A DNA stretch of 64,000 nucleotides from an uncultured Pelagibacteraceae bacterium. Lineage in GTDB: Bacteria > Pseudomonadota > Alphaproteobacteria > Pelagibacterales > Pelagibacteraceae. The notes under the pieces were generated by a model. The model saw only the letters and a program-made list of their open reading frames with translations, made no database searches and was not told the DNA's origin. Position numbers and translations under genes: made by a program. Positions 16,773 through 32,797 of this stretch are shown here, piece after piece; within the stretch, counting starts at the first letter, position 1, and each line of letters opens with the position of its first letter. The stretch is from the NCBI GenBank assembly GCA_902594705.1, contig CACJNI010000002.1, forward strand, positions 62,001 to 126,000, written 5' to 3'.

Positions 16773-19010
16773 TTAATGTCCGATTCCGATAATAGTTAAA
16801 TCATCGTCTAGTATATCGTTATTTGCTTTTATACCAGTCTCTTTGTAATCTCTTTTTAAACTTTTAAGTCTTATTTCCTCTGTAGAATTTTCAAGTTCTT
16901 TTTGTAAAGAAGAATTTTGATGATTAAGTAAAAGTTTCTTAACTCCATCAATACCTATTTCGTTTTTATTTTCGTCCATACATTCTGAAAAACCATCAGT
17001 AAAACAATAAATTCTTCCTCCGTCTAATTTAAAAGTATCTAGCTTATAAACATTTTCATTTTTATGTTTGACTATTGCAAGAGGAGTAGAAGAAGATGAA
17101 TATTCAACAAAATCCTTTCCTTTTCTCAACAAAGCTGGTTGGTGACCTGCATTTGCAATTTCAATAATATCTGTTTTAATATTATAACATCCAACAATTG
17201 AGGTTATAAAAGTACCTGGCGGATTAGTTTCGTTTAAATCATTGTTCATTTCAAGTAGGATTTCATTCGGCTTAAATTTTAATCTAGAAAAAATTTTAAA
17301 TAAAGTAATTGCCTTTGCCATAACCATACCAGCATTAACTCCTTTGCCAGAAACATCTGATAATGTGAAATAAACAAGATCATCATGTAAATAAAAATCG
17401 TAAAAATCTCCTGAAATTTCTCTGGCTGGAATATTTAGTCCATAAATTGGATAATTAGACAAATCTCTATTTGGCATCAAACGTTTCTGCACATTCATTG
17501 CTAATTTGATTTCAGATGAAACTCTGTTTTTCCATTTATTTTTTTGTTTTTCACTTTGTTCTAATTTTTCCATCAAAAAATTGTATTGGGTACCAATAAT
17601 ACCGCTATCAGTGAATGGATCTTGAGGCGCTCTTAATGAGTAATCCTCAGTTTTTGCTTGATTGGTTAATACTTCAAGTAATTCGTGAGTATCTGTTGAT
17701 GCGTTGTGTTCTGATATATTTAAACCAAGTTCCTCTTGAATTTTACCTACTCGAAGTGGATAAATATAATTTATAGATTTAAAAATTATGTATGAAGCAA
17801 AAAAACAAAATCCACCAATGCTAAATGTTCCTATGATTTGAATTGTTAATTGTTCTAATCTTGTTTTATCTAGTCCCATCATTTCGAAATCACCAAATAT
17901 AGCAACTGATATAGTTCCCCACATACCTCCTACTAGGTGAACAGGTATAGCGCTAACAACATCGTCAATTCTTAATTTCTCTAATAAAATAATTGTTGAG
18001 CCTGATAAAATTCCTCCAATTGCTCCAATATATATTGCCTCCGATGGATTAACATAAGCACAACTTGCAGTAATTGAAACTAAACCAGCCAAAGGACCTG
18101 TAATCATAAATAACGGCTCTGGTTTTTTCATTACGATAATACCCATTGCACTTGAAAAGATTAAACCAAATGATGCTGACAAAAAGGTGTTAATTAATAT
18201 CAATGGAATTTTTAAATCCATTGCTCCATTTGCGCCACCATTAAATCCAAACCAACCGAACCATAAAATTAAAGCGCCAAGGGCAGCAATTGGTGTATTA
18301 CTTCCTTGAAACAATTTTTTATCTTTATCTTTTCTAAATCTACCTGTTCTACTTCCGATAATGAGTAATATTGCTAATGCCACCCAACCTCCAACCGAAT
18401 GGACAACAGAAGCACCTGCAAAATCTAAATAACCCATCTTACCTAGCCAACCAAATTTTACTGTTGGATTCGTAAAATCAAAAGCCCATGCCCAATGACC
18501 TACTATTGGGTACAAAATTCCTGAAGTTATAAATGTTATTATTACATATGAGAAAAATCTAAGTCTTTCAGCAACAGCTCCTGATATGATAGTTGCTGCT
18601 GTTGCAACAAACATTGCCTGAAATACAAAATATGTTTGGTAACCAGCAACTTTGGTTGTGAAAAAATAAAATTTATTTCCGAACAAGCCCATCACACTAG
18701 TTCCATACATCAATGCAAAACCAAAAGCCCAAAAAGTAACAACGGCTATTCCAAAATCTGTAATATTTTTAAGAGCAACGTTAATACTATTCTTGCTTCT
18801 TGATAAACCAGATTCTAAACACATAAATCCAGCCTGCATCAAGAAAACTAAAATAGCGCAAATTAACAACCAAAATGTATCTAAATTCGCTTGTAGTACA
18901 GCTTCTAATCTAAACTCTGTTGCTTTGATTGCTCCTTTACTTGTGAGCTCTAACTGACTTATTTTAGACTGTAGCTTATCAACCAAAATTTGGAGTTCAG
19001 CTACAGTCAT
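16773..19010 (-). CDS. Ammonium transporter fused to SpoIIE/PP2C phosphatase (Amt-SpoIIE, copy 1)
   Basis: A 745-residue fusion. Residues 1-40 form a short helical N-terminus. Residues about 43-420 are an Amt channel with the pore twin histidines H204 and H358, the gate region FQAMFVATAA, VGHWAW and LWFGWFGFNGG, so conduction looks intact. Residues 421-505 are a linker with EELGLNISEHNAS and a coiled coil. Residues about 505-745 are a SpoIIE-type phosphatase with metal-binding aspartates D535 (SGDFYDF), D552 (SDVSGKG), D672 (FTDGFSE) and D736/D737 (DDDLTI). The phosphatase would face the cytoplasm. A sensory role, dephosphorylating a STAS protein when ammonium passes, is inferred from the domains. 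It lies 10 bases behind the HMA gene. Confidence 0.93.
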   Translation of the reverse strand: MTVAELQILVDKLQSKISQLELTSKGAIKATEFRLEAVLQANLDTFWLLICAILVFLMQAGFMCLESGLSRSKNSINVALKNITDFGIAVVTFWAFGFALMYGTSVMGLFGNKFYFFTTKVAGYQTYFVFQAMFVATAATIISGAVAERLRFFSYVIITFITSGILYPIVGHWAWAFDFTNPTVKFGWLGKMGYLDFAGASVVHSVGGWVALAILLIIGSRTGRFRKDKDKKLFQGSNTPIAALGALILWFGWFGFNGGANGAMDLKIPLILINTFLSASFGLIFSSAMGIIVMKKPEPLFMITGPLAGLVSITASCAYVNPSEAIYIGAIGGILSGSTIILLEKLRIDDVVSAIPVHLVGGMWGTISVAIFGDFEMMGLDKTRLEQLTIQIIGTFSIGGFCFFASYIIFKSINYIYPLRVGKIQEELGLNISEHNASTDTHELLEVLTNQAKTEDYSLRAPQDPFTDSGIIGTQYNFLMEKLEQSEKQKNKWKNRVSSEIKLAMNVQKRLMPNRDLSNYPIYGLNIPAREISGDFYDFYLHDDLVYFTLSDVSGKGVNAGMVMAKAITLFKIFSRLKFKPNEILLEMNNDLNETNPPGTFITSIVGCYNIKTDIIEIANAGHQPALLRKGKDFVEYSSSSTPLAIVKHKNENVYKLDTFKLDGGRIYCFTDGFSECMDENKNEIGIDGVKKLLLNHQNSSLQKELENSTEEIRLKSLKRDYKETGIKANNDILDDDLTIIGIGH

Positions 19011-19020
19011 AAAATTTTTT

Positions 19021-19350
19021 TTAATCTATAAGTTTTCTTGCTTCTTCAGCGTCTGTAATTATGCCATCAACACTAATTACTTTAACTACTTCAAATCCGG
19101 TACCTAATATTGCATTTTTATATTCATCCTCAGATAAATTTGATTTATCTGCAAAAGTAGATACCGCAACTCCTTCTGGCCAAGAAACTGTAACTGTAGC
19201 ATCAGGACAAGCCTTTTGTAACGCTTCAGTGACCATTTTTTGACACTTGATACATATCATACCATTTACTTGTGCTATTTGCGTTTGAGCTGCAAATAAA
19301 TTAGTACTAAATAAAAGAAAACCTATAGTTAAGACTATTTTTTTTAACAT
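19021..19350 (-). CDS. Periplasmic heavy-metal-associated (HMA) domain protein
   Basis: A 109-residue protein. I choose the ATG at 19350 because TAAGGAAATT just before it is a good Shine-Dalgarno. A signal peptide (about 20 residues, ending NLFAAQ) precedes one HMA domain with the metal motif GMICIKCQKMV (MxCxxC) and FEVVKV in the last strand. Such domains bind Cu(I) or other soft metals, so a periplasmic metal-binding or chaperone role is likely; it lacks other domains. It is sandwiched between two Amt-SpoIIE genes and precedes copy 1 by 10 bases. No copper transporter is nearby, so the link with ammonium transport is unexplained. Confidence 0.8.
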   Translation of the reverse strand: MLKKIVLTIGFLLFSTNLFAAQTQIAQVNGMICIKCQKMVTEALQKACPDATVTVSWPEGVAVSTFADKSNLSEDEYKNAILGTGFEVVKVISVDGIITDAEEARKLID

Positions 19351-19373
19351 AATTTCCTTATTGTTTTTTATAA

Positions 19374-19402
19374 ATCGTATCATTTATACAGAAAACATAC
19401 AA
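19374..19402 (-). promoter_or_regulatory. Predicted sigma-70-type promoter for HMA gene and Amt-SpoIIE copy 1
   Basis: On the minus strand TTGTAT (19397-19402) and TACGAT (19374-19379) are separated by 17 bases. The likely start of transcription is about 15 bases before the HMA gene's Shine-Dalgarno. It sits in the only gap between the two Amt genes. The boxes are imperfect, and an alternative extended -10 (TGTATAAAT) overlaps them. Confidence 0.35.
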
Positions 19403-19429: not shown

Positions 19430-21580
19430 TTATTTACCAATTGAAATTAACGTTAAATCATCACTTAATTTATTTTCACCTGCAACTTTCACTACTTCTT
19501 TTGTAATTTCATTTAGTTGTTTTTTTACATCCTGATTGAAGTTTTTCTCAATTATTTGAATTGATCCTTCTATTCCTATTTCCTCACCTGAACTATTTAA
19601 GCTTTCGGATAAACCATCTGTGAAAGCACAAAACCTGTTATTTTCTAGCTTAACTTTGTGAGTTTTATAGACTGACTTATCCTTTTGAAGTATTACACCC
19701 ATTGGTGGAGAATTACTTTCAAATTGCTCATAATTTCCAGAAGATGATCTAATTATAGCTGGCTGATGACCGCCATTTACCCATCTTAATTCATCCGTCC
19801 TCATATTATATTCTCCCAAAATACTAGTAACAAACATGCCACCTGTTTTAGTTAAAAACAGATCATTGTTCATATGAAACATCATTTCATCTGGATCTAC
19901 TTGATCTCTAGACATTATTTCAAAAAGAGTTGATGCTTTTGCCATTACCATTCCAGCATGAATTCCTTTACCCGCAACATCTGCAATAATAAAGTAAACG
20001 CTATCATTGTGAGGATAAAAACTAAAGAAGTCTCCTGAAACTTCTCTAGCTGCAATATTTATTCCGTGTACAGGATAATTTTCCAAGTTTCTTTTTGGTA
20101 GGAAATTTTCTTGGACTTTTACTGCAAGTTTTACTTCATTTGAAATTCTGTCTCTCCATACCTTCTTTTCAGACTCACTGGTTTCTAGTTTGTTCATCAA
20201 CCTATTATAATAAAGACCGATCACACCTCCAGCTGTAAATGGATCTTGAGGTCCTCTGATTGTTAAATCACCCGATTCAGATTGTTTTTCTAAAATTGTA
20301 ATTAAATCATGTTCTACAGAAGTTGCATTATGTTCAGCAATATTAAGACCTAATTCTTCATGCAAAGGACTTACTCTTAAAGGATAAATATAATTTAAAA
20401 TTTTTAATAAGATATATGAACCAAAAAATGAAAATACACCGATTGAAACAATTCCGATAAATTGAGCTTTGATTTGTTCTAGTCTTGTTAATCCTGTTCC
20501 AAGTATTTCAAGATCACTAAATAAACCTACAGCAATAGTTCCCCAAACCCCCGCTGCCAAATGAACAGGCACAGCACCAACAACATCGTCTATTTCAAAT
20601 TTGTTTAAAAATTCATTTACAAAAATTGCTACTACCGCTCCTATAATTCCAACAAATATTGAAGTCACTGATGTCATTGAATTACATCCTGCTGTAATTG
20701 CAACTAATCCTGCAAGTGGTCCAAGTATTACATAATAAGGATCTGGTTTTTTAAATAATGCAAATGAAATTCCAAGACCCGTTAGTAATCCAAAAGAAGC
20801 AGCAAGAAATGTATTTATTAATATTAGAGGAACTGCTTGATCCATTGCGCCATTACTTCCACCATTAAAACCAAACCACCCGAACCATAAAATCAAAGTA
20901 CCTAAAACTGCTAAAGGAAAACTTGAGCCTGTGAACTTTCCTTTATTTGCATCTGAATATTTTCCTATTCTCGGACCTAAAATTAAAACAGCTGATAAAG
21001 CGATCCATCCTCCAACTGAGTGAACTATTGTACTTCCAGCAAAATCTACAAATCCAATATCTGTTAGCCATCCAGTTGTTTTAACTTGGCCTGTAACAGC
21101 AAGTAATTGCCTCGTAGCATCAATATTATTTAAATAACTAGAAGACCATGCCCAATGACCAACAATTGGATAAATAATCCCTGTAGCTATAATTGTGATA
21201 ATTAAGTATCCATTAAATTTCATTCTTTCAGCAACAGCACCTGAAACAATTGTAGCTGCGGTAGCAACAAACATTGCTTGAAAAACAAAGTAAGTCATGT
21301 ATTCAGCCTGATCAGTTTTAAAAAAGAATAAGTCAGTACCAAAATACCCATTAAAACTTTTTCCAAACATTAAGCCGAAACCAAATAACCAGAAAATTAC
21401 AACTGCAAGACCAAAGTCAGCAGCATTTTTAAGAGCAACGTTAATGCTATTTTTGTGCCTAGAAAGACCCGTTTCCATACACATAAAACCTGCTTGCATA
21501 ATGAAAACAAGAATTGCACAATCTATAACCCAAAGGGTATCAACAAATGATTTTACAGACTCCAGATCAACACTCTCCAT
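19430..21580 (-). CDS. Ammonium transporter fused to SpoIIE/PP2C phosphatase (Amt-SpoIIE, copy 2)
   Basis: A 716-residue paralogue of the previous fusion with the same order: Amt channel (about residues 14-400; twin histidines H187 and H340; the FQAMFVATAAT, VGHWAW and LWFGWFGFNGG blocks), linker with EELGLNIAEHNAT, coiled coil (about 455-495) and SpoIIE phosphatase (about 495-716). The metal-binding aspartates are D517 (SGDFFSF), D534 (ADVAGKG), D655 (FTDGLSE) and D707/D708 (SDDLTL). It lacks the longer N-terminal helix of copy 1. GAGGAAAT precedes the ATG closely. The gene follows its own strong-looking promoter. The pair probably arose by duplication of an existing fusion and may cover different ammonium ranges; that is inference. 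Confidence 0.93.
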   Translation of the reverse strand: MESVDLESVKSFVDTLWVIDCAILVFIMQAGFMCMETGLSRHKNSINVALKNAADFGLAVVIFWLFGFGLMFGKSFNGYFGTDLFFFKTDQAEYMTYFVFQAMFVATAATIVSGAVAERMKFNGYLIITIIATGIIYPIVGHWAWSSSYLNNIDATRQLLAVTGQVKTTGWLTDIGFVDFAGSTIVHSVGGWIALSAVLILGPRIGKYSDANKGKFTGSSFPLAVLGTLILWFGWFGFNGGSNGAMDQAVPLILINTFLAASFGLLTGLGISFALFKKPDPYYVILGPLAGLVAITAGCNSMTSVTSIFVGIIGAVVAIFVNEFLNKFEIDDVVGAVPVHLAAGVWGTIAVGLFSDLEILGTGLTRLEQIKAQFIGIVSIGVFSFFGSYILLKILNYIYPLRVSPLHEELGLNIAEHNATSVEHDLITILEKQSESGDLTIRGPQDPFTAGGVIGLYYNRLMNKLETSESEKKVWRDRISNEVKLAVKVQENFLPKRNLENYPVHGINIAAREVSGDFFSFYPHNDSVYFIIADVAGKGIHAGMVMAKASTLFEIMSRDQVDPDEMMFHMNNDLFLTKTGGMFVTSILGEYNMRTDELRWVNGGHQPAIIRSSSGNYEQFESNSPPMGVILQKDKSVYKTHKVKLENNRFCAFTDGLSESLNSSGEEIGIEGSIQIIEKNFNQDVKKQLNEITKEVVKVAGENKLSDDLTLISIGK

Positions 21581-21895: not shown

Positions 21896-22327
21896 TTAAC
21901 ACTTAGCGGCGTCTTGAAAGCCCTTACCATTTAAACAAAATTTTTTAGGAGAAGAACTTGGTGTAATTTCTTTTGCAATTATTCTATATTTTTCATTATT
22001 CGTATTTATTACGACAGTGCAAATATTATAACCAAGGTCATCAGATATGCTGTCTGTCTCTCCTAAAAGTTCATCCTCAATACTTTTCGATGAAGTTGAA
22101 TCAGGATCACATGTAGTCGATCCACTTTTTGTGCTATAGTATGTTTGTTCGCCTGAATAGTACTCGGTCTGACCAAGCGCTATTTGTTGCATGATATTTT
22201 CAACAGCTTTCTTTTTAGCAGATGCTACATAGCCATTGTAACTAATAATTCCTATTGCTGAAATAATTCCTAAGATTGCAACTACGACTAAGAGCTCTAT
22301 TAAAGTAAAACCAGAACTCTTAGTCAC
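21896..22327 (-). CDS. Type IV pilin-like protein (second pilin)
   Basis: A 143-residue prepilin with the class III leader: a short basic start, then the cleavage site SSG^FTLIELLVVVAILGIISA with Glu at mature position 5. Four cysteines are present (TTCDPD, YNICTVV, KKFCLNG and the C-terminal AAKC), enough for disulphides including a C-terminal D-region loop. It starts with GTG (22327), 12 bases after the stop of the main pilin gene. It is cleaved by the prepilin peptidase encoded at 45897-46661 and assembled by PilBC. It may be a minor or alternative pilin; which one dominates is not certain. Confidence 0.88.
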   Translation of the reverse strand: MTKSSGFTLIELLVVVAILGIISAIGIISYNGYVASAKKKAVENIMQQIALGQTEYYSGEQTYYSTKSGSTTCDPDSTSSKSIEDELLGETDSISDDLGYNICTVVINTNNEKYRIIAKEITPSSSPKKFCLNGKGFQDAAKC

Positions 22328-22339: not shown

Positions 22340-22822
22340 TTATTCGGCTGTAACTGTACCCGTTACTATATTTGCTCCTGAGCATGGGTTACTTGTGGTA
22401 CCATCCGTAAAACATGTTTTAATTGTAACTACCTGGGAAGCAACTGCTACTGCCGTTTGTCCACTTGTTGGGGTAGCGGCATCTACAACTGCTGCAGAAC
22501 TAGTACTATACGGATTTTTGAAATCTGCTAAACCTGCAACAATAGCTGCTTTAAGTTTAGTGTCGTTTAATCTGTCCGTTGATGCACATGTGTGAGTACT
22601 ATGACCCATTAATTTTGCAGTATCATCTCCGTTAACTACACATTTTTGTAGTTCACTTGCAACAAACTTAACAACCGCTGCATGATTAGATTTTGCAGCT
22701 GATTTTTTTGCACCTGACGTGTAACCTGAATAAGCCACAACACCAACTGCTGCTAATATTCCAATGATTGCTACAACAACCAATAATTCTATAAGTGTAA
22801 AACCTTTATTATTCTTTTTCAT
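22340..22822 (-). CDS. pilA: Type IV major pilin (PilA-like)
   Basis: A 160-residue prepilin with leader MKKNNKG and the mature start FTLIELLVVVAIIGILAAVG, including Glu5. The globular part is Ala/Thr/Ser rich with two likely disulphide pairs (KCVVNGD/HTCASTD and KTCFTDG/NPCSGA), the last pair near the C-terminus as in type IVa pilins. It is the first gene after the divergent gap to the STAS gene, with TAGGATT about 10 bases before the ATG. The position and composition make it the best candidate for the major subunit. Confidence 0.9.
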   Translation of the reverse strand: MKKNNKGFTLIELLVVVAIIGILAAVGVVAYSGYTSGAKKSAAKSNHAAVVKFVASELQKCVVNGDDTAKLMGHSTHTCASTDRLNDTKLKAAIVAGLADFKNPYSTSSAAVVDAATPTSGQTAVAVASQVVTIKTCFTDGTTSNPCSGANIVTGTVTAE

Positions 22823-22963
22823 ATCTAATAATCCTATATTTAATAAAAATAAGTATATACATATAAATTATATCTTTTAAAAGGCAATATCTACACTGTA
22901 ATAGTAATCAAAATGGGTCATTTTTGTTGATTTAGTAAGGAAATTTAATAAATATTAATAATT

Positions 22964-23263
22964 ATGTCATATAAAGTTATCGAGGAAGGCAATGTTGCAA
23001 CAGTTCACCTAGATGGTGAAATAGACATGGATGTAACTGAAAAAGCAAAAGAAATTATTATGCCTCTAATTGAGGCAAAAAAAGAAGTTCATTTAAATTT
23101 AAAGGAAGTTCAGTACATGGACTCTTCAGGAATTTCAGTATTAATCGAAAGCCATCAAAAAGCAACTGAGCTTGGTACAAAAGTAATCCTGAAAGAAATT
23201 AGTAAATCAGTTCTTAAAGTAATTATGATGGCAAAACTAGAGCAAATTTTAAATTTGGATTAA
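22964..23263 (+). CDS. STAS-domain anti-sigma-factor antagonist (SpoIIAA/RsbV-like)
   Basis: A 99-residue single STAS domain. VHLDGEIDMDV gives the first beta/alpha turn and YMDSSGISVLIESHQ carries the phosphorylation motif D53-S-S-G; Ser55, next to Gly, corresponds to the serine phosphorylated in SpoIIAA. In partner switching the unphosphorylated form binds the kinase/anti-sigma factor and frees its target. The kinase-like gene follows 3 bases later, and SpoIIE phosphatases are encoded at 16773-19010, 19430-21580 and 46829-48118. It is divergent from the pilin operon. Confidence 0.92.
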   Translation: MSYKVIEEGNVATVHLDGEIDMDVTEKAKEIIMPLIEAKKEVHLNLKEVQYMDSSGISVLIESHQKATELGTKVILKEISKSVLKVIMMAKLEQILNLD

Positions 23264-23266
23264 TTC

Positions 23267-23698
23267 ATGAATGTGGCATTAAAATCAATTATAGAACAAA
23301 GAGATTTCGTAGTCAGTTCATCGAGTTTAAAAGAAGTAAGATCATTTTCAAGAGAAGTGTTTGAGAAAGTAAATATTGATCAAGATTTAAAAGACGAATT
23401 AGTTTTAGCAATTGCAGAGGCAGCACAAAATATCGTGAAACATGCTTACCAAGGAGAGGATACTGAAGATAAAATGGAGATCAAAATTTCATTAGAACAA
23501 GGTCACCTTGAAATAGGTTTTTTTGATAAAGGCAGACCAGTTGATGAAAAAAATGTCAGACACAGAAAAATTGATGATATCAAACCTGGAGGATTAGGAA
23601 CTTTTTTTATTCAACAAATAATGGATGCAGTAGTATTTAAAGAAGGTGAAAAACCTTGGATCAATCACTTAGTTCTTACGAAAAATTTAAATTCTTAA
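23267..23698 (+). CDS. Anti-sigma-factor-type serine kinase (RsbW/SpoIIAB-like HATPase)
   Basis: A 143-residue GHKL ATPase. The N box is LAIAEAAQNIVKHAY (E51, N55), the G1 box is GFFDKGRPVD (D87-x-G89) and the G2 box is PGGLGTFFIQQIMD. These are complete, so kinase activity is likely. It would phosphorylate the STAS protein encoded 3 bases upstream and hold an unknown target when the STAS protein is phosphorylated. No sigma factor is encoded in the window, so the target may be distant or not a sigma factor. It converges with pilC, the two stops overlapping by 4 bases. Confidence 0.9.
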   Translation: MNVALKSIIEQRDFVVSSSSLKEVRSFSREVFEKVNIDQDLKDELVLAIAEAAQNIVKHAYQGEDTEDKMEIKISLEQGHLEIGFFDKGRPVDEKNVRHRKIDDIKPGGLGTFFIQQIMDAVVFKEGEKPWINHLVLTKNLNS

Positions 23699-24936
23699 CC
23701 GCCAATAATTGCACCAACGTTAAAGATCGGTGAATACATCGCTATCATCAAACCACCGATCATTGTTCCCATAAATACAATCATAATTGGTTCAATCAAA
23801 CTTGACATATTATCTACCGCTGTATCAAATTCTTCTTCATAATAAGCTGAGACTGATGTAAACATCTCATCCAAGTTTCCGGTTTGCTCTCCTACTGAAA
23901 TTAATTGACTGAATGTTGGAGGAAAAACTGGTTCTTTTAAAAATAGTTTAGTTAAAGTATCGCCTGAGAAAACTCCTTTTTTAACATTTTCTAGTGCCTG
24001 AGTTACAACATCATTATTACTCACTTGTTTAGCAATCTCTATACTCTCTAATAAATTAACACCTGCAGAACTAAGATTTCCCATAATTAATGAAATTCTT
24101 GCAATTAAAGATTTTAAAATCATGTCTCCAAAAACTGGCATTTTTAAAACTCGTTGATGCCACTTATATCGAATTGCTGGAATTTTAGTTGTTGTATATT
24201 TAAATATAACAAAACTTACTATTGAAATTATTCCAAGTGTTAATCCACCAGCACCTCTCATAAAATTACTTGCATTTAAAATAACTGCTGTTGGTGTTGG
24301 TAAAGCAACACCCATTCCTTCATACATTTCAGCAAATACCGGGACAACTTTAATCAACATGAATACCATAACTGTTATAGCAACAGTAAACATTACTACT
24401 GGGTAAGTTAATGCACTTTTAATTTTCTTTTTAACTTTTTCTCTTTTTTCAAGTGAATCTACTAATTTTAATAAAAAAACATCTAATTTACCGCTGGCTT
24501 CTCCAGCTTTTATTAAATTTATGTATATATTATCAAATATTTTAGGGTATTTTTCAAAACACTTTGATAAGGTTATACCGCCTTCTAAACTCTTTCTAAT
24601 ATCTTCGATAATTTCTTTCAAAGTTGGGTGTTCAATCTGATCTCTAAGCATAGAAAGGACATTCAAAATTGGTAGACCGGCTTTAACCATTGTTGCAAAC
24701 TGTTTTGAGAAAATCATTACATCTGCAGGAGTAACTTTTTTCTTCCCAAATGAAAAACTACTCTTTTTTCCCTTCTCTTTTTCTGCCTTTTTTTTCTTAA
24801 CTTTTATTAAGTTAGTTATAATGATTTTTTGCTCTTTTAATTTATATGACGCTTCTTCTTGATTTAAAGCTTCTATTTCACCTTCGATATATTTTCCTGC
24901 TGATATTCCTTTATAGGAAAAAGTTTCGGCTGACAT
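23695..24936 (-). CDS. pilC: Type IV pilus inner-membrane platform protein PilC
   Basis: A 413-residue protein of the PilC/GspF family with the duplicated GspF domain. The first repeat starts at about residue 75 (MIFSKQFATMVKAGLPILNVL) and the second at about 275 (ISLIMGNLSSAGVNLLESIE), with three membrane segments including one near residue 180 and one at the C-terminus. KAGEASGKLD and VGEQTGNLDEMF are the family's GE-x-TG-L motifs. An N-terminal segment (SYKGISAGKYIEGEIEAL) matches the usual PilC start. It anchors PilB and PilT to the PilMNOP base. It starts 3 bases after the pilB stop. Confidence 0.94.
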   Translation of the reverse strand: MSAETFSYKGISAGKYIEGEIEALNQEEASYKLKEQKIIITNLIKVKKKKAEKEKGKKSSFSFGKKKVTPADVMIFSKQFATMVKAGLPILNVLSMLRDQIEHPTLKEIIEDIRKSLEGGITLSKCFEKYPKIFDNIYINLIKAGEASGKLDVFLLKLVDSLEKREKVKKKIKSALTYPVVMFTVAITVMVFMLIKVVPVFAEMYEGMGVALPTPTAVILNASNFMRGAGGLTLGIISIVSFVIFKYTTTKIPAIRYKWHQRVLKMPVFGDMILKSLIARISLIMGNLSSAGVNLLESIEIAKQVSNNDVVTQALENVKKGVFSGDTLTKLFLKEPVFPPTFSQLISVGEQTGNLDEMFTSVSAYYEEEFDTAVDNMSSLIEPIMIVFMGTMIGGLMIAMYSPIFNVGAIIGG

Positions 24937-24939: not shown

Positions 24940-26688
24940 TTACTCCGCAGAGAGAACTCTATCGTATTCTCTAAAATTTAAATCTCCTGTAAGAATAAGT
25001 TCTCTACCCATATCTTGCATTGTCCTAAATCCTTCATTTGATGCGATTTCCTTTAACTCTGGTGTTGTTGCTTTTCTCAGGATAGCTTCTTTGATAGGTT
25101 TTGTTACGTTTAAAATTTCATAAATACCCATTCTACCTTTGTAACCTGTATCTTTACATTTCGGACACCCTTTACCTTTTTGTACCTTTGCTCTTGAAGC
25201 TTGTTCAACTGTAAAACCTAAATCTGCTAAAGCTTTAGGTGTAATGTCTTCATCAGGCTCTCTGCAATCTGCGCAGGTTTTTCTTGCTAATCTTTGTGCT
25301 AAAACTAAAGAAACTGCAGCACTTATCAAATAGTCTGGGGTTCCCATATTTTGCAATCTTGTTATTGTACTTGGAGCATCATTTGTGTGCAAAGTACTAA
25401 ACACTAAGTGACCAGTTAAAGCTGCTTTTAGACCTATATCTACAGTTTCTTTATCTCTCATCTCTCCAACTAGAATTATCTCTGGGTCTTGTCTTAAAAA
25501 AGATCTCAGTGCTGTTGAAAAATTAAAACCAATATCATCTTTTATTTGTACTTGTCCTACTCCATCAAGTTCATACTCTACTGGATCTTCTGCGGTAAGA
25601 ATATTTAAGTGAGGTTTAGAAACTTCTTTTAAAATACTATACAAAGTTGTTGTTTTACCTGATCCTGTTGGACCTGTAACTAAAACTAGTCCTTGTGTTC
25701 CGTGAATAGCTTTTCTTAAATTTTTTAAATCATTTTCTTCGAAATTAAGTTGTTCTAAACTGATGTCTCCTGCATCTTTGTTTAAAACCCTCATAACTAT
25801 TCTTTCATTAGTAGCTGTAGGTAAAATTGATAAACGTAAGTCAACGACTTTTCCGTCAATTTTAAACGGTATCGCTCCATCTTGTGGCAATCTTCTTTCT
25901 GCAATATCAAGTTTACCCATAATCTTAAATCTTGTTACAACGGCACCATAGTTCGAATGTAAAAACTTTTTAAAATGTTCTTGTTCTTGTAAAATACCAT
26001 CTAGCCTATACCTCACTCTTGATGTAAATCGATATGGCTCAATATGTATATCTGAAACACCTGATTTAATAGCTTCTGCAACAACGGCAGTGCTGAATTT
26101 TATCACTTCAGACTCGTTTTCTATAGCTTCGATATCTTCTTCGGGTGGTTTCTCTAGTACTTCAGCTTGCTCATCTACATCATAATCAAAAGTTTTAGTC
26201 TTTTCTGCATTTGTTTGTCTAATATCTGATATTGTTCTTTCACCATCTGCTAACAATTTATCTACAAAATTTGAAATATCTGAAACTTTAGCTGCATGTA
26301 GTTCAATATCCATTTTGGTAATAGTTCTGAGATTTCTCATCAAACTTAGTTTTGAAATATCAGAAATAGCAATATGTAAAACTTTGCCTTCAATTTTAAA
26401 TGGAGCTATAAAATTCATATTAATATAATTGGATGGAAGAACAGCTTTCAATTCATCAGTTACAGAGATTGATGACAAATCTACTACATCTAAGGATTGA
26501 TCTTTTACTAAAAGATCTAAAATTTTCTCTTCATCAGTTAGATTTAATTCAAATACTGCATCTAGTTGGGATTTTTCTCCTTCACCTGATATTTTTTTTA
26601 TTTCAGCTAAATCTTTTCCTGAAATGATATCTTGATCGATTAAAATATTTATTAAATTAATCTCAGATTCTCTACTTATATTAATCAT
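24940..26688 (-). CDS. pilB: Type IV pilus extension ATPase PilB
   Basis: A 582-residue GspE-type ATPase. An N-terminal MshEN-like domain (about 1-150) is followed by the ATPase core with Walker A GPTGSGKTTTLYSIL, Asp box LTAEDPVEYELDGVGQ, Walker B ILVGEMRDKETVDI and His box STLHTND. The zinc tetracysteine is present (CADC, then GCPKC) near residue 490-520, as in PilB and GspE. It powers pilin polymerisation at PilC. It overlaps pilQ by one base. Confidence 0.95.
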   Translation of the reverse strand: MINISRESEINLINILIDQDIISGKDLAEIKKISGEGEKSQLDAVFELNLTDEEKILDLLVKDQSLDVVDLSSISVTDELKAVLPSNYINMNFIAPFKIEGKVLHIAISDISKLSLMRNLRTITKMDIELHAAKVSDISNFVDKLLADGERTISDIRQTNAEKTKTFDYDVDEQAEVLEKPPEEDIEAIENESEVIKFSTAVVAEAIKSGVSDIHIEPYRFTSRVRYRLDGILQEQEHFKKFLHSNYGAVVTRFKIMGKLDIAERRLPQDGAIPFKIDGKVVDLRLSILPTATNERIVMRVLNKDAGDISLEQLNFEENDLKNLRKAIHGTQGLVLVTGPTGSGKTTTLYSILKEVSKPHLNILTAEDPVEYELDGVGQVQIKDDIGFNFSTALRSFLRQDPEIILVGEMRDKETVDIGLKAALTGHLVFSTLHTNDAPSTITRLQNMGTPDYLISAAVSLVLAQRLARKTCADCREPDEDITPKALADLGFTVEQASRAKVQKGKGCPKCKDTGYKGRMGIYEILNVTKPIKEAILRKATTPELKEIASNEGFRTMQDMGRELILTGDLNFREYDRVLSAE

Positions 26689-28238
26689 TATAAAATTCTT
26701 GGTGCTATAAACACTAATAATTCATCAAGATTATCAGAATTTGCTTTACCTTTAAAGAGATTACCTATCACAGGCACATTGCCAATTACTGGTGTCTGGC
26801 TTTTTGAGTCTGATAAAACATTCTTTTTAATACCACCAATCACAACAATATCGCCATCAGCTACCAACAATTTGGTTACTATTTCCATTTTATTAATTGG
26901 TGGTTCATCTGAGGAAGCAGTTCGGTTAGGTGTATCATTATTAACTTGAATAGTTAGTAAAACATTTCCATCACCTATTATGCTTGGTGTTACTTCTAAT
27001 TTTAAAGCTGCTTCTTTAAATGATGTAGATGTTGTTCCATCAGAAGTAGTTTGATAAGGAATTTCTTCACCTTGTGTGACTGTTGCAACTTGGTTATCTA
27101 AAGTAAAAACTTTTGGATTTGATATGGTTCTTCCCATACCCATGCTTTCAAGAGCTGTAATTTCTGCTTTTAAAACACCGGAACCCGTTCTTCTTAAGAT
27201 ACCAATTCCACTAGTCGCCCCTGTTGCTGGAAAGTTTGCTATACTATCACTTGCAGTACCAAGAGCTGAAGAAGCTCCCACATCTGTTCCAGCTGCACTT
27301 CCGCTGCTTGACCCAGCAACACCACCTGTAACTTTTCCTGCTCTGTTATAATATCCTCCTAATCTACTTCCTAGCGCTCTTTCAAAATCAGAGTTTGCTT
27401 CTACTATAAAGGCTTCTATTAAAACTTGTTTAGTTCTGATATCAATTTCTTTTATTACCTTGTCTACAACATCAAGGTCTTTTTCTTTTCCTCTCACAAT
27501 AATTGATCTGGTCGTTATCTCTTCTGTAATTTGAATTGGAGTATATGAGCTTTCTCCAGCTGTCGAAGTAAATAGTTCTTCTATTGTAGATTTTGCTTGA
27601 GCTGGAGTAATATAATACAATCTAAAAATTTCTGAGTAAATCGGCTCTACACTGTCTTCTAATTCAACTTTCTTTTTAACTGCTGAAGCTCTTTCTGATT
27701 TATAGGTCTCTTGTTGAGTTAAAGTTTCAGGAGAATGAACTCTAATTAAATTACTAGCTACATCAACATCTGATGCATAATTTTTCATATCCAGTAATGC
27801 CTGAAATGCCTTATCCCACGGCACATCTATTAATTCTGCTGATATTGCTCCAGCAACTTCATCACCTACCAGAACATTTATTTCTCCTATTTTACCCATT
27901 AGCTTCATTGTTTCTTTATAATCTAGGTTCTTAAATTTGAGAGTTACTCTTTGTTTTAATAGAGGATATTCATCAGGAATGATTAGATAATTTCGTTGAG
28001 CTTCAGAAGATATTTTTTTTCTTTTACCAAGTTTTTTTCCATCTCCCTCTATAGGTTTTGGACCCATTTCCAGAGTTTTTGAAACTTCTGATTTACCAGC
28101 ATCAACTATTTTTTTATCTTTTATTAAAGGTGTATTATGCTTAAATGGTTTGTCATATTTTTTTAAATTCTGACAAGCACTTAAAATTAATATTAGAAAT
28201 AACAATCCGATGTAATTTATAAATTTTTTAATAGTCAT
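26688..28238 (-). CDS. pilQ: Type IV pilus secretin PilQ (lipoprotein, short form)
   Basis: A 516-residue secretin. Residues 1-22 end in a lipobox (LILSAC, Cys22), so it is probably lipidated like MshL, and unlike classical PilQ. A secretin/STN domain follows (about 95-180: VTLKFKNLDYKETMKLMGKI), then an N1-like domain with TTRSIIVRGK (about 240-275), and the secretin core to the end, with VLIEAFIVEANSDFERALGS, EIPYQTTSDGT, and VPVIGNLFKG with ELLVFIAPRIL at the C-terminus. AMIN domains seem to be absent. A Gly/Ser/Ala-rich insert lies around 300-345. It forms the outer-membrane pore; it overlaps pilP by 11 bases. Confidence 0.92.
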   Translation of the reverse strand: MTIKKFINYIGLLFLILILSACQNLKKYDKPFKHNTPLIKDKKIVDAGKSEVSKTLEMGPKPIEGDGKKLGKRKKISSEAQRNYLIIPDEYPLLKQRVTLKFKNLDYKETMKLMGKIGEINVLVGDEVAGAISAELIDVPWDKAFQALLDMKNYASDVDVASNLIRVHSPETLTQQETYKSERASAVKKKVELEDSVEPIYSEIFRLYYITPAQAKSTIEELFTSTAGESSYTPIQITEEITTRSIIVRGKEKDLDVVDKVIKEIDIRTKQVLIEAFIVEANSDFERALGSRLGGYYNRAGKVTGGVAGSSSGSAAGTDVGASSALGTASDSIANFPATGATSGIGILRRTGSGVLKAEITALESMGMGRTISNPKVFTLDNQVATVTQGEEIPYQTTSDGTTSTSFKEAALKLEVTPSIIGDGNVLLTIQVNNDTPNRTASSDEPPINKMEIVTKLLVADGDIVVIGGIKKNVLSDSKSQTPVIGNVPVIGNLFKGKANSDNLDELLVFIAPRIL

Positions 28239-28680
28239 CGGTCTCCCTTACTTGATTATTGAAATCAATAATCATAAATTTTCCATCGTCTTTTTTAAAT
28301 ATTGCCTCTGTTAATCTAAGATCAACTAATTGAATTTCTCCTAAATATTGTCCTAAAGTTAATGTGAGGACTTCTCCTCCAGAGTTGACTAAAGATATAT
28401 AACTGTAATCTTTTCCTGAAATTAATCCTGCAAGTTTAAAATTATATAAACTCATTTCATTATCTTGCTCTTCACTTGGAATATTAGACATAGAACTTGT
28501 GCCTTCGTTTCCTGCAAATGGGTCATTTAAAGGAACCTCTTCATCTTCCTCCATATCTTTTACAATTTCTTTTGCTTTTTCGAGGACTTCCTCTTTTTTA
28601 TCATGACTATCTGCAAATGAATTACTGAAGGATAGTAATAAAACCAAAAGTATAATATTCAAAAGTTTAGAAAAATTCAT
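28228..28680 (-). CDS. pilP: Type IV pilus assembly protein PilP-like
   Basis: A 150-residue protein with a signal peptide ending near SFADS, an acidic linker (EEVLEKAKEIVKDMEEDEEV) and a C-terminal PilP-like beta domain that starts near NFKLAGLISG, then ISLVNSGGEVLTLTLGQYLG and ends with MIIDFNNQVRETDDY. Classical PilP has a lipobox; none is seen here, and pilQ carries one instead. It links PilMNO to the secretin. It overlaps pilO by 14 bases and pilQ by 11. Confidence 0.82.
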   Translation of the reverse strand: MNFSKLLNIILLVLLLSFSNSFADSHDKKEEVLEKAKEIVKDMEEDEEVPLNDPFAGNEGTSSMSNIPSEEQDNEMSLYNFKLAGLISGKDYSYISLVNSGGEVLTLTLGQYLGEIQLVDLRLTEAIFKKDDGKFMIIDFNNQVRETDDY

Positions 28681-29305
28681 TTGGTAGTCCTACAATAGTT
28701 AATTCTCCTTGAGCCACTATCGCTCCAGTTGAATCGTTTTGTACTATACTTATAGTCTCTTTGTCAAAATTTAACATTTTGTTTTGTCTAGATACTGCTC
28801 TTTTAAACTTTATGTACCCAAGAAAATTGCCTTTAATCTCATAATCTACAGGTATTTTGTAATATGAGACCATATCTTGTTTAATGTTTTCTTCCGATTG
28901 TGCTGCAACACCTTGTTTAAAAACAGGCTCAGGTTTTTTCTTTTCTATTTTTGAAATTACCAACCCATTGACATCTGCATATTTGCTTAAACTTTCATAT
29001 AGACCTTCAACTTCTGCTTTAGAATGAAACAAAGTAGATGTTTTATCAAAATCAGGTTTCATTTTTTGTATTCGTTTTTTAAAAACTATTATCTCATTTT
29101 GAAATTGTTCTATTTCATTTTGTTTTAATATTTTATCTTCGTATTTTGCTTTTCTTTCTTTAACCATTGGATTTAAAACTACGTAATATATTATTAAAAA
29201 TAAAATAATTGCTACAAAACCTGATCCAAATTTTATTAATGTTTTTTTATCTATGGTATTAAGTTTTTGTTTTAAATCATCCATAGTTATATTTTTAAGA
29301 TCCAT
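28667..29305 (-). CDS. pilO: Type IV pilus assembly protein PilO-like
   Basis: A 212-residue protein from the ATG at 29305, chosen because TTGGAGGTATCTTAATG shows a strong Shine-Dalgarno and its A is shared with the pilMN stop. Residues 25-50 form one membrane helix (GSGFVAIILFLIIYYVVLNP), followed by a coiled coil (about 55-105) and an alpha/beta domain (about 110-212) ending near GELTIVGLPNEFF. Topology and position are those of PilO. It heterodimerises with PilN in the periplasm. Confidence 0.88.
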   Translation of the reverse strand: MDLKNITMDDLKQKLNTIDKKTLIKFGSGFVAIILFLIIYYVVLNPMVKERKAKYEDKILKQNEIEQFQNEIIVFKKRIQKMKPDFDKTSTLFHSKAEVEGLYESLSKYADVNGLVISKIEKKKPEPVFKQGVAAQSEENIKQDMVSYYKIPVDYEIKGNFLGYIKFKRAVSRQNKMLNFDKETISIVQNDSTGAIVAQGELTIVGLPNEFF

Positions 29306-31017
29306 TAAGATACCTCCAATACACAAGCTACTTTAAAGCCTTTCATGTTTTGTGATCCTTGTTGACCTTGTGGTAAAGTCATACTTGCAAGTGAAGCTTG
29401 TGAAATAAGCTTTTTGTTATTTAAATTACTTATCAATTTAAGAATATCTTGATCACTAAATGCCGTTCCTTCTATAACAACTAAATTAGATCCATTATAT
29501 TCTATTGATTTAAATTTAACTCTTTTTGGAACAGCAGATGCAATTTGAGCAAGCACTCTAAAACTTACAGTTTTGTTTGATTTTATAGATTTACTTAGAT
29601 TTAAAGATTTAAGCATCACACCTATTTCTTTAGCAAATTTATTTTTTTCTAAAGTTTTTAGTTCGTGTTGTTGTACAATTTGATCATAACCATCAATTTT
29701 TTTGTTAAGATCTGTTATTTGCCAAAATGCTAAACCAAACAAGACTATATAAATTACTGCAACAACTCCAACCACCCCTTTAAATGCAAAATTTGAGAAG
29801 GCTTTTGCTTTTTTTTGAGCAATCATGTTTTCTCTATTTGGTAGAAGGTTGATATTTTTTACTGCGGTAACAAATTTATAGTAACCAAAAACATCTAGTT
29901 TCCTAAAAGCTAATCCCATAACCGTAGAAAAATAAGATCTATTTTCAATCTTAACATCGTTTTCTAATTGAGCCGGAATTTTTATTCCATCAAAAGGATC
30001 AAATAAATTATAACCCGTATTAACCATATTTTTTCTAAAGCTTGCCAAATAATCTTCTACGTTAGGTAAGTTTGAAGTAACTTTTAAATTTCTAATTCTT
30101 TTTTCATATTTCTGTTCGAAATCTTGAACAGCTTGCTTCACTTGTGTCATATATCTTCTTACAAGCGCTTCCATCTCCTCTTGATTGCTACTTTCCTGTA
30201 AGGTTTTTCTATCTTGGGATCTAATAAAGATGTCAGTTATAATTGGATTGTTATCATAAAGTATCATTACATAATTCTCATCTAATCCAAATTCCAGAAC
30301 TGCAGTTAAATTAGAGTCCTCAATTGAACCAGCTATTTGATTTATTTGGTCTACTGCTGATTTTAATGCAAAACACTTAACATCTATTATTACAGCGTTT
30401 AGACCACCTTTTTTAATTATATCTGTGTAACTGTTTATGTCTGATAGTTTTGATGCAACAAACAATATATCCATTGTATTGCCAGTTTTATCTCTATTAA
30501 TAACCTGATGAAAAATTGAATAATCGGCAAGATTATCAGTCAACTGCACTAGATTTTCCCAAAGTGAATCTGTATCTATGGCTTTTGCTAACTCTTCATC
30601 AGTCATTAAAGGTGCAGTTACAACTCTTATGATTGCGCTTGTAACTGGAATAGCAATTGCAGCATTTGTAGTTGATATTTTAGATTTTTGTAATGCAAGT
30701 TTTAATTCATCTGCAACCTTGTCAGGGTTTTCTAAAACTGTTCCATTCTCTGGAATGCCCTCAAACTTATGAACAAAAAATTTATCTAAAACCCATTGGT
30801 TTGCTTTATTGCTTGAAACTTGAGATAATCTAATTTCGGATGGAGTTAGCTCAACTCCCAAGATTTCTTCACCTTTTATAGATTGTTTTCCCAATCTATT
30901 CTTTAAAAACTTATCAAAAAATCCTTCTTTTTTTGGTTTGTCGCCTGTTGGGGTTGGCGGCTTATCTGCCTCGTCTTTTTTTTTCTTTTTAAAAAGGTTT
31001 GCAAATGGATTTTTCAT
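29305..31017 (-). CDS. PilM-PilN fusion protein of the type IV pilus base
   Basis: A 570-residue protein joining two normally separate pilus proteins. Residues about 1-375 are PilM-like: a basic N-terminus (KNPFANLFKKKKKDEADKP), then ILGVELTPSEIRLSQV, AAIAIPVTSAIIRVV and the cytoplasmic actin-like fold. Residues about 385-570 are PilN-like: INLLPNRENMIAQKK (the PilN NLLP-x-R motif to which PilM binds), one membrane helix (about 412-432, FKGVVGVVAVIYIVLFGLAF), a coiled coil and a small alpha/beta domain. Fusion fixes the usual PilM-PilN contact in one chain. It is the first gene of the minus-strand pilus operon and is divergent from pilT. Confidence 0.88.
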   Translation of the reverse strand: MKNPFANLFKKKKKDEADKPPTPTGDKPKKEGFFDKFLKNRLGKQSIKGEEILGVELTPSEIRLSQVSSNKANQWVLDKFFVHKFEGIPENGTVLENPDKVADELKLALQKSKISTTNAAIAIPVTSAIIRVVTAPLMTDEELAKAIDTDSLWENLVQLTDNLADYSIFHQVINRDKTGNTMDILFVASKLSDINSYTDIIKKGGLNAVIIDVKCFALKSAVDQINQIAGSIEDSNLTAVLEFGLDENYVMILYDNNPIITDIFIRSQDRKTLQESSNQEEMEALVRRYMTQVKQAVQDFEQKYEKRIRNLKVTSNLPNVEDYLASFRKNMVNTGYNLFDPFDGIKIPAQLENDVKIENRSYFSTVMGLAFRKLDVFGYYKFVTAVKNINLLPNRENMIAQKKAKAFSNFAFKGVVGVVAVIYIVLFGLAFWQITDLNKKIDGYDQIVQQHELKTLEKNKFAKEIGVMLKSLNLSKSIKSNKTVSFRVLAQIASAVPKRVKFKSIEYNGSNLVVIEGTAFSDQDILKLISNLNNKKLISQASLASMTLPQGQQGSQNMKGFKVACVLEVS

Positions 31018-31145: not shown

Positions 31146-32162
31146 ATGTTTGAAAAACTTGAAGAGCTTGCAAAAAATAACAAAAAAATTTCTGATTTTC
31201 ACATAAGATCTGGATCTCCTTTAGCATATAGACAAACTGGCGAAATTGTCAAAGTGCCAGAAGTAGTTGTGACGGCACAAGATTTAAAAGATTTACTTTC
31301 AATGAATTGTAATGAGGGTGAATTAAATAAATTTGATAAAACTCATGAACTAGATACATCGGTTACATTAAGTGGTTTAAGATTTAGAGCAAATTTTTAT
31401 AAAACGATTAATGGACCTGCGTGCGTCTGTAGAAGAGTGGAAAGCAAAATTCCAGATATGGATCAATTTAATTTACCACAAGCACTTTATGACATTGTCG
31501 ATTTCCACAAAGGACTTGTGTTGGTTACAGGACCAACTGGTTCTGGAAAATCAACAACGTTAGCTGCAATAGTAAATGAAATTAACAAAACAAGAACTGC
31601 AAATATTATTACAGTAGAGGATCCAGTAGAATTTATTCATACAGATAATAAGAGTATTGTCTCACATCGTGAAGTTGGAAAACAAACTGAAACATTTGCT
31701 GCTGCTTTAAAAGCAGCATTGAGAGAAGATCCAGATGTAATTTTAGTTGGAGAGATGAGAGATCTTGAAACTATTAGTTTGGCATTAACTGCAGCAGAAA
31801 CAGGTCACTTAGTATTTGGAACTTTACATACAAGTGGTGCACCAAGTACTATCAATAGAATTATAGACGTTTTCCCTCCTGAACAACAAGAACAAATTAG
31901 AGCTCAGATATCTACTTCTCTTAAAATGGTAGTGACACAAAGATTATTAAAAACAAGAGATGGTTTAGGTAGAGTTGGTGCATTTGAGATTATGAAATGT
32001 ACTGCGCCAATTCAGAACTTAATTCGAGAAGCTAAAATTCACCAAATACCTAGCATTATGCAAACTGCTGTGAGAGATGGTATGATTACAATGGAAAAAT
32101 CTCTTGAAGAATTAGCAAAATCAGGGAAAATAGATCCCGGTGCCGCAAGATCAGAACATTAA
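31146..32162 (+). CDS. pilT: Type IV pilus retraction ATPase PilT
   Basis: A 338-residue hexameric ATPase with Walker A TGPTGSGKSTTLAAIVNEIN, Asp box IITVEDPVEFIHTDNKS, Walker B ILVGEMRDLETISLAL and His box GTLHTSGAPSTINRIIDVFP. It has the short PilT N-terminal domain and the PilT-type end (LRKGAG-like EIMKCTAPIQNLIREAK). Presence of PilT means the pilus can be retracted, so twitching, pulling or DNA uptake is possible. It starts the plus-strand half of the locus. The fimT gene overlaps its end by 23 bases. Confidence 0.94.
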   Translation: MFEKLEELAKNNKKISDFHIRSGSPLAYRQTGEIVKVPEVVVTAQDLKDLLSMNCNEGELNKFDKTHELDTSVTLSGLRFRANFYKTINGPACVCRRVESKIPDMDQFNLPQALYDIVDFHKGLVLVTGPTGSGKSTTLAAIVNEINKTRTANIITVEDPVEFIHTDNKSIVSHREVGKQTETFAAALKAALREDPDVILVGEMRDLETISLALTAAETGHLVFGTLHTSGAPSTINRIIDVFPPEQQEQIRAQISTSLKMVVTQRLLKTRDGLGRVGAFEIMKCTAPIQNLIREAKIHQIPSIMQTAVRDGMITMEKSLEELAKSGKIDPGAARSEH

Positions 32163-32793
32163 AGGTTTTACATTACTTGAACTACTAGTTGTTGTTTCAT
32201 TAATTGCAATTTTATCAGCTATTGGTTTTCCAAATTTTATGGATTGGAGGACAGACAGACTTGTAAGAGTGGCAATGGAAGATGCTGCAAGTTTAATCAG
32301 ATCAGCAAATACACTTCAACAAAGAGGAAATTATCCTTATGTTCAATTTAAAGTATCCCCTTCAGGAAGTGGAGTAATTTTTTCAACTAATGCATTAAAG
32401 TTAAATACATTCGCACAAAGAAAAAGAGGCAACCAAATGGGTAAATTTAAAAATATTGAGTGCAATACTTCTGCATCAGATTATTGGGATTTAAATGGTT
32501 TAGATGAAAAATCTACTACAGATATTATAACACATTTATCTAAAAAAGATGGAGTTTGTTTTTCAAATGATCCATCAAAGTACGATGGCATGAGTAATAT
32601 AAATACTAGAGTTGAGGGTCAATTAACAGACCAATATTTAATAATTTGTCTTAACAAAGACCATAAAAAGAAAGTTAGGACCAATTGTCCTCTTACTTTT
32701 AATAAAAAAGAAAAAGCATATCTCATTCAATGGACAAGATTTGGCACAATAGCAAAATTTAAATGGTCAAGAAATAGTTGGAATAGATTATAA
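32140..32793 (+). CDS. Minor pilin, FimT/GspH-like
   Basis: A 217-residue prepilin with a very short leader: GTG start, then PQDQNIKG^FTLLELLVVVSLIAILSAIGF with Glu5. The mature part has a GspH/FimT-like beginning (FPNFMDWRTDRLVRVAMEDA) and five cysteines. It overlaps the end of pilT by 23 bases; no start nearer to the cleavage site is available except rare codons. FimT-type minor pilins belong to the tip complex and bind DNA in some species. It starts the FimT-PilV-PilW-PilX minor pilin run. Confidence 0.85.
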   Translation: MPQDQNIKGFTLLELLVVVSLIAILSAIGFPNFMDWRTDRLVRVAMEDAASLIRSANTLQQRGNYPYVQFKVSPSGSGVIFSTNALKLNTFAQRKRGNQMGKFKNIECNTSASDYWDLNGLDEKSTTDIITHLSKKDGVCFSNDPSKYDGMSNINTRVEGQLTDQYLIICLNKDHKKKVRTNCPLTFNKKEKAYLIQWTRFGTIAKFKWSRNSWNRL

Positions 32794-32797
32794 TAAA

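Follow-up and report, generated by a model that had tools for sequence, protein, structure and literature searches.

Known partner switches

The SpoIIAA/SpoIIAB/SpoIIE and RsbV/RsbW/RsbU switches of Bacillus share three protein families, their motifs and the fold of the kinase with the locus that we describe here from SAR11, a group which is among the commonest of ocean bacteria. RsbW/SpoIIAB kinases act specifically on STAS partners. The SAR11 switch differs from its Bacillus counterparts in that no sigma-F or sigma-B client was found for it, in that several phosphatases, with different sensors, go with one pair of kinase and STAS protein, and in its location within a pilus cluster. A non-sigma output is known from the SiaA/B/C/D system of Pseudomonas, made of a PP2C phosphatase, a STAS protein and a kinase, where it is a diguanylate cyclase.

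Other systems also come close. In Nostoc punctiforme, HmpU, HmpV and HmpW are the phosphatase, STAS protein and kinase of a locus for hormogonium motility and polysaccharide, the target of HmpV being given as unknown (PMC8256260). They resemble the SAR11 switch in these components, while being cyanobacterial and, in the part of the report at hand, described with no mention of an Amt fusion (PMC8256260). RbaV, RbaW and RbaY of Rhodobacter capsulatus form an alphaproteobacterial partner switch for which, according to the sections consulted, no sigma factor was found, the STAS protein being the likely output (PMC3999984). This system differs in controlling the production of a gene transfer agent, and the same sections link it neither to pili nor to ammonium (PMC3999984). 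On the input side, Ks-Amt5, an Amt-histidine kinase, is reported to bind ammonium, and its kinase to respond (PMC5764959). In sensor Amt proteins (Ks-Amt5, and those of PDB entries 8qj3/8qpf) the Amt module is an ammonium receptor, as it likewise would be in SAR11, where by contrast the output domain is a SpoIIE/PP2C phosphatase. A search of the literature, mostly of openly available papers, gave among the matches listed nothing in titles or abstracts about Amt-SpoIIE fusions or about a pilus switch in SAR11.

A single STAS-HATPase pair

The window, by which we mean the whole stretch of 64,000 nucleotides analysed, belongs to a source genome of 1.32 Mb that is 94% complete, and the absences reported below for this genome hold within that completeness. 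The pair consists of two genes, 3 nt apart by their ORF coordinates:

22964..23263, + strand: STAS antagonist with D-S-S-G phosphorylation motif, 99 aa (Pfam STAS 6.7e-16; alignment)
23267..23698, + strand: RsbW/SpoIIAB-type HATPase, predicted Ser kinase, 143 aa (Pfam HATPase_c_2 4e-21; alignment; SpoIIAB/RsbW fold match)

The STAS protein scores over the cut-off of NCBIfam TIGR00377, and the NCBIfam RsbW and SpoIIAB models match the HATPase, below their equivalog cut-offs. Modelled with AlphaFold2 (mean pLDDT 81, residues 98-109 below 50), the HATPase has its best fold matches in SpoIIAB and RsbW; a chain of the SiaB-SiaC complex is matched weakly (E 2.6e-3). The original prediction held that the STAS protein keeps its D-S-S-G site and the kinase its N, G1 and G2 boxes, and the alignments, made of chosen rows, bear this out: D53-S54-S55-G56 is invariant in 21 of 21 rows of the STAS protein, and E51, N55, D87, G89, G108, G109 and G111 in 24 of 24 rows of the HATPase. 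The features by which a partner switch is recognized, a phosphorylatable Ser in the D-S-S-G of a STAS protein and a GHKL kinase with its N, G1 and G2 boxes, are present.

Genome-wide, the HATPase is the sole family match above cut-off, next to two weak matches in frames of 426 and 591 aa, and a profile search gave a single STAS match. The pair is the only one of its kind found in the source genome. Elsewhere the STAS gene may be doubled, as in 7 of the best 80 named loci; in some lineages (L069:7491-8071 and others) one HATPase is preceded by STAS proteins in tandem, of 94 and 99 aa, each with D-S-S-G.

A type IV pilus cluster around the pair

In the window the pair is flanked by two pilins on one side and by pilC on the other, inside a type IV pilus cluster:

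21896..22327, - strand: pilin-like protein (Pfam N_methyl 1.8e-08)
22340..22822, - strand: pilin, pilA-like (Pfam N_methyl 1.1e-10)
22823..22963, no strand: 141-bp divergent intergenic region from pilA to the STAS gene (coordinates)
23695..24936, - strand: PilC platform protein, with a 4-nt overlap with the end of the HATPase gene (Pfam T2SSF 2e-61)
24940..26688, - strand: PilB extension ATPase with MshEN domain (Pfam T2SSE 2.8e-124, MshEN 7.6e-14)
26688..28238, - strand: PilQ secretin (Pfam Secretin 2e-41)
28228..28680, - strand: PilP-like protein, by position only (no Pfam family; same position in relatives)
28667..29326, - strand: PilO-like (Pfam PilO 2.6e-4, below cut-off)
29305..31017, - strand: PilM-PilN fusion (Pfam PilM_2 4.7e-19, PilN 1.5e-09)
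31146..32162, + strand: PilT/PilU-type retraction ATPase (NCBIfam TIGR01420, over cut-off)
32140..34886, + strand: minor pilins, four ORFs (Pfam N_methyl in three, PilX_N in one)
35496..39611, + strand: PilY1-like protein (Pfam T4P_PilY1 4.1e-15)
45897..46661, - strand: PilD prepilin peptidase (Pfam A24_N_bact, Peptidase_A24)

A DNA-uptake (competence) pilus was considered and rejected: ComEC (PF03772) has a match in 0 of 147 genomes of the order, the control being positive in 10 of 14. MshEN is often a c-di-GMP-binding fold; PilB (24940-26688) bears it in a genome that gave no GGDEF match.

The best 80 named loci (78 Pelagibacteraceae, one Candidatus Pelagibacter ubique and one MAG labelled Rhizobiales) place the source genome in SAR11. 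They are the nearest relatives by construction, with a HATPase identity of 68-98%, so that conservation of gene order is partly expected among them. Beyond the HATPase, the first recognized gene is pilC in all 80, at a distance of 371-374 nt in eight of these, and pilA stands on the other flank in all 76 whose contig continues. In these 76 named relatives the region between pilA and the STAS gene has a median of 141 bp (range 63-241).

A wider view comes from a sample of 147 genomes of the SAR11 order, scored by profile matches per genome. SpoIIE is found in 48, HATPase_c_2 in 46, STAS in 47 and the secretin in 51. Of the HATPase_c_2 genomes 44 are taken as RsbW-type by a frame length of 132-163 aa, leaving out G109 and G029 (frames of 534 and 433 aa), while the STAS set comprises the 44 of 47 genomes with short proteins, leaving out G024, G006 and G077, which have long frames only. 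The HATPase adjoins pilC in 37 of the 44 pair genomes, an extra pilin intervening in G101. Six others are rearranged (G001, G005, G007, G020, G026 and G034), and there parts of the switch still lie beside pilus genes: the HATPase is near pilT in the first five; in all four rearranged loci that were fetched (G001, G005, G020, G026) the STAS gene lies upstream of pilD at 0-6 nt; G001 has a HisKA-receiver-SpoIIE gene at 25 nt from one for a pilin; and G034 has the pair, pilD, an Amt-SpoIIE and pilA all within 6 kb.

The secretin is present in 42 of the 44 pair genomes, the exceptions, G060 and G082, having their pair about 2 kb or less from a contig end. Within family f1, secretin and HATPase are concordant except in these two (HATPase only), in G099 (secretin only) and in G110; the discordances of G060, G082 and G099 coincide with contig ends. 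G110 (L127) is a true exception: the pilus cluster is present, pilA lying next to pilC at 92 nt, and no match to STAS, HATPase or SpoIIE was obtained anywhere in the genome. Since this genome has the cluster and no match to the switch, pili are possible without the latter, and G110 lends itself to comparisons aimed at what the switch does. Seven genomes of another family, f2, match the Secretin profile and lack the pair; such a match does not by itself imply a type of pilus. Part of the synteny and of the co-occurrence is due to common descent and to the genes forming a single physical island, and the counts, with the Fisher tests on them, treat related genomes as independent.

Phosphatases and their company

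An Amt-SpoIIE protein is an ammonium-transporter module joined to a PP2C-type phosphatase domain. The window encodes two of these, and a third SpoIIE protein further on:

16773..19010, - strand: Amt-SpoIIE fusion 2, 745 aa (Pfam Ammonium_transp 3e-106, SpoIIE 8.7e-27; metal Asp residues and His pair kept)
19021..19383, - strand: HMA-like CxxC protein, probably secreted, with a signal-like start by eye (weak NCBIfam MerP/CopZ-type matches below cut-off; no Pfam family)
19430..21580, - strand: Amt-SpoIIE fusion 1, 716 aa (Pfam Ammonium_transp 4e-111, SpoIIE 3.3e-36; PDB similarity to sensor-type Amt into the linker)
46829..48118, + strand: GAF-SpoIIE phosphatase, divergent from pilD (Pfam SpoIIE 5.2e-42, GAF_2 4.7e-11)

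That three SpoIIE phosphatases lie at most 25 kb from the pair had been claimed at the outset and is correct (16773-19010, 19430-21580 and 46829-48118); a genome-wide profile search adds that these are the only SpoIIE matches of the source genome. The Asp residues that we take to be metal-binding are kept in 86 of 86 SpoIIE rows compared, namely the three of the window and 83 complete frames of at least 420 aa out of 91 found, with eight dropped as incomplete or shorter than 420 aa and at least one G062 gene counted twice. The HMA-like CxxC gene (19021-19383) sits between both Amt-SpoIIE genes, and in many relatives, G034 included, it adjoins an Amt-SpoIIE gene. Truncated-globin genes are also found beside SpoIIE genes, either sensorless (G011; L144:1386-2693) or of the Amt type (G034; L126:5693-8220), perhaps as an input for oxygen or NO.

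The five kinds of gene were expected to occur together in related genomes, and across the 147 genomes they do. All 44 genomes with the RsbW-type HATPase have a short STAS protein (44 of 44) and SpoIIE (44 of 44), so that a pair without SpoIIE is seen in 0 of 44. Amt-SpoIIE is found in 31 of these 44, counting G058, where a piece of it lies at a contig edge, and in 0 of the other 103, hence without the pair in 0 of 31. SpoIIE without the HATPase occurs in four genomes (G068, G099, G136 and G141), never as an Amt fusion, and each time the contig breaks off inside the pilus cluster or a few kb at most from SpoIIE.

Thirteen of the 44 have the pair without Amt-SpoIIE: G001, G005, G007, G020, G026, G028, G040, G062, G084, G105, G111, G115 and G128. 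The first five are single-contig, while a contig break could hide the fusion in some of the multi-contig ones. Their SpoIIE sensors are CHASE2, GAF or HisKA-receiver, as called by Pfam scan in G001, G026, G028, G084 and G105 and by length and blastp class in the other eight. Because of these 13 genomes, ammonium has to be regarded as a frequent but optional input. The link to ammonium put forward in the original prediction is supported in so far as neither the pair without SpoIIE nor Amt-SpoIIE without the pair was seen, and falls short as a general rule.

Some SpoIIE genes lie far from the pair. G011 has a fourth, sensorless one about 210 kb away if the contig is circular, which adjoins a globin gene and is 3 nt upstream of a pilin gene. 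In G013, which has the pair, a copy of Amt-SpoIIE is about 0.4 Mb away if the contig is circular; no pilus gene was recognized within 5-6 kb of it, nor of the distant long SpoIIE genes of G015 and G001.

The Amt module as a probable sensor

With the roles of residues in the Amt module taken from Ks-Amt5 (PMC5764959), the His pair, the Phe gate and the Trp of the filter are kept in 38 of 38 Amt-fusion rows (two from the window and 36 complete relatives). Together with the Amt fold and the fused output domain, these are the features by which an ammonium-sensor Amt is recognized. The structures nearest to Amt-SpoIIE 1 are 8qj3/8qpf and 6eu6 (phmmer 2.6e-118 to 8qj3, 3.4e-84 to 6eu6), and similarity to 8qj3 extends into the linker, up to residue 481. 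We take 8qj3/8qpf to be an Amt-diguanylate cyclase, the PDB title reading Ammonium transporter, and 6eu6 to be Ks-Amt5. The SpoIIE part has by sequence two weak response-regulator matches only in the PDB, 3eq2 (3.5e-08) and 3es2. In the AlphaFold2 model of Amt-SpoIIE (mean pLDDT 72) residues 414-462 are mostly below 50, a linker too weak to show coupling. Among the matches listed from 398 genomes of the phylum, only those of the source genome itself go past query residue 600, the others ending at or before 500; as this search used E 1e-70 and scored two candidates per genome, diverged fusions could escape it. Two matches outside the source genome were judged by eye to be Amt-PAS and Amt-histidine kinase.

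It could be that the Amt-SpoIIE proteins do not report ammonium to this pair, the Amt module only transporting or the SpoIIE domain having another substrate. Besides the 13 pair genomes of 44 in which no fusion was detected, the pore itself lends some weight to this reading. Among the bulky helix-I residues that close the pore of Ks-Amt5, the first Phe is kept (F32), while Tyr is replaced by M, L or V at position 35 and the second Phe by L at position 39. As the Phe that is kept is also present in both unfused Amt proteins of the source genome, pore closure cannot be deduced from it. Further, the Ser position of the filter holds Ser in 26 of the 38 rows, with Ala in 11 and Thr in one. Against this, Amt-SpoIIE is never without the pair (0 of 31), even where, as in G013, a copy is far away; the source genome has four Amt proteins, two of which are without SpoIIE; and the resemblance to sensor-type Amt proteins reaches into the linker, to residue 481. 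We consider it unlikely that these proteins fail to report ammonium to the pair, and retain the reading that the switch is probably set, to judge from its genes, by phosphatases fused to ammonium transporters.

Sigma factors, lipid transport or pili

Few sigma factors, and none in the window, were foreseen for this genome. Indeed only two Sigma70_r2 proteins were found genome-wide, in frames of 617 and 299 aa whose sizes fit RpoD and RpoH, both outside the window, so that no sigma-B-like client is evident. An output of the sigma-B or sigma-F type was rejected, its cognate alternative sigma factor not being found in this genome (94% complete). Rejected too was a diguanylate cyclase output of the c-di-GMP or SiaABCD type, with 0 GGDEF matches in the source genome and a control positive in 8 of 14. 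A further candidate, an anti-phage system, had no PADLOC match for the three proteins tested. The unconventional output that had been suspected is supported in so far as no alternative sigma factor was found; the location amid pilus genes had been missed.

With so few sigma factors, the HATPase might instead be the anti-sigma of the housekeeping sigma factor (or of RpoH), throttling general transcription, its place among pilus genes being incidental. The RsbW of Chlamydia trachomatis is reported to bind the primary sigma factor (PMC4552016), and RpoD and RpoH are reported as phosphorylated in the SAR11 strain HTCC1062 (PMC13198564). However, 103 of the 147 genomes, which presumably still have a primary sigma factor, are without a match to an RsbW-type HATPase, and presence of the pair tracks the pilus cluster, which makes an anti-sigma role improbable to our mind.

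The specificity of RsbW/SpoIIAB kinases for STAS partners, together with the many genomes of the order that have no RsbW-type match, makes it still harder to believe that this enzyme has broad specificity and serves, as a Ser/Thr kinase, much of the SAR11 phosphoproteome, with the SpoIIE proteins as general phosphatases, a proposal that we regard as very improbable. It would draw on the report that 555 phosphoproteins were seen in HTCC1062, where RsbW (SAR11_0057) is the sole Ser/Thr kinase listed (PMC13198564).

Other Alphaproteobacteria give a different context to the same core. The HATPase profile matches 27 of 289 genomes of the class at E 1e-12, the source genome and G001 included. Outside SAR11, the best 11 of 27 places were examined with wider flanks (L286-L296). 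GAF-SpoIIE is adjacent to or fused with the HATPase in 10 of these 11 (not in L287), a single GAF-SpoIIE-HATPase protein being confirmed by Pfam in L286 and L295; STAS is downstream, and D-S-S-G is found in 11 of the 12 STAS genes. Such adjacency and fusion outside SAR11 support the view that GAF-SpoIIE, HATPase and STAS make one system. MlaE is the next gene after STAS in 10 of the 11, L291 being the exception; MlaF is present in nine and MlaD in eight, counts that are limited by contig ends in L288 and L293, and all three switch genes occur together with MlaE in 9 of the 11. The 16 weaker places, seen with flanks of 1.5 kb only, gave one MlaE match, in L277. In loci L286-L296 the system is possibly a phosphorylation-controlled, MlaB-like regulator of lipid transport.

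As the HATPase-STAS genes adjoin mla genes and not pilus genes outside SAR11, position alone cannot prove the output. The STAS protein of SAR11 could itself be an MlaB-like regulator of MlaFED lipid transport that the switch phosphorylates, its genes having merely been moved beside those of pili. The succession of STAS and MlaE in those loci goes in this direction, as does a weak match of the window STAS to the NCBIfam mlaB model, at 25.5 bits where the cut-off is 90. Yet a search at E 1e-4 gave no MlaE or MlaD in the window or in the stretches of SAR11 genomes fetched, so that we find this account quite improbable, more so than an anti-sigma role. The same core may control lipid transport in those loci and pili in SAR11. 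There, to judge from the genes, the likeliest output is the type IV pilus, because the pair sits inside the pilus cluster and co-occurs with it.

A possible mechanism

On balance, and with moderate confidence, we favour a partner switch without a sigma factor, acting on type IV pili and taking ammonium as one optional signal. The named families suggest how it would operate. The HATPase would phosphorylate the STAS protein on its D-S-S-G motif, and the SpoIIE phosphatases would strip the phosphate off. Most of the latter carry a sensor: Amt, predicted to sense external ammonium, or GAF, for a ligand in the cytosol, to which the relatives add CHASE2 and receiver domains. The phosphorylation state of the STAS protein, or the HATPase freed by it, would then act on a component of the pilus or on pilus gene expression, and use of the pilus would thereby follow the nutrient state of the cell. 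Gene content and conservation lend good support to the view that the genes form a partner switch, sigma-free and with ammonium as a frequent input; which component it acts on directly, and in which direction, is pure inference. A more precise scheme is offered tentatively, being rather doubtful in its entirety: occupancy of the pore of an Amt transceptor would gate the fused PP2C domain, and phospho-STAS would directly switch the motor or platform of the pilus, free of sigma factor and c-di-GMP, with interchangeable sensors (Amt, GAF, CHASE2, receiver).

Consequences for SAR11

SAR11 bacteria are reported to have few transcriptional regulators (PMC13198564). A phosphoproteome of HTCC1062 published in 2025 names one Ser/Thr kinase, RsbW, detected in the proteome, and, in the portion of the paper at hand, no known protein phosphatase (PMC13198564). 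The conditions given there are light, temperature, carbon and sulfur, nitrogen limitation not being named in that portion (PMC13198564). Genome G011 of the sample is very probably that of HTCC1062: its HATPase is gene 56-58 from the start, by the ORF cut-off used. Besides the HATPase, two STAS genes and four SpoIIE genes are found in it, the latter being two Amt-SpoIIE, one of the GAF-SpoIIE class and one without a sensor. The RsbW kinase of SAR11 is now placed in a pilus cluster, with SpoIIE-type phosphatases, two of them fused to Amt, identified alongside. These SpoIIE proteins are candidates, by sequence, for the protein phosphatases reported missing, and two open questions, how SAR11 dephosphorylates its proteins and what RsbW is for, become directly testable.

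As to the pili, the accessible part of one account of the SAR11 family has it that adhesion was not observed and that only filaments believed to be pili were seen (PMC12636525). The switch offers a candidate route from ammonium to pili, and ammonium may help to decide when SAR11 cells use them. If true, this would be nutrient-gated control of pili in a streamlined ocean bacterium, with interchangeable sensors feeding one switch.
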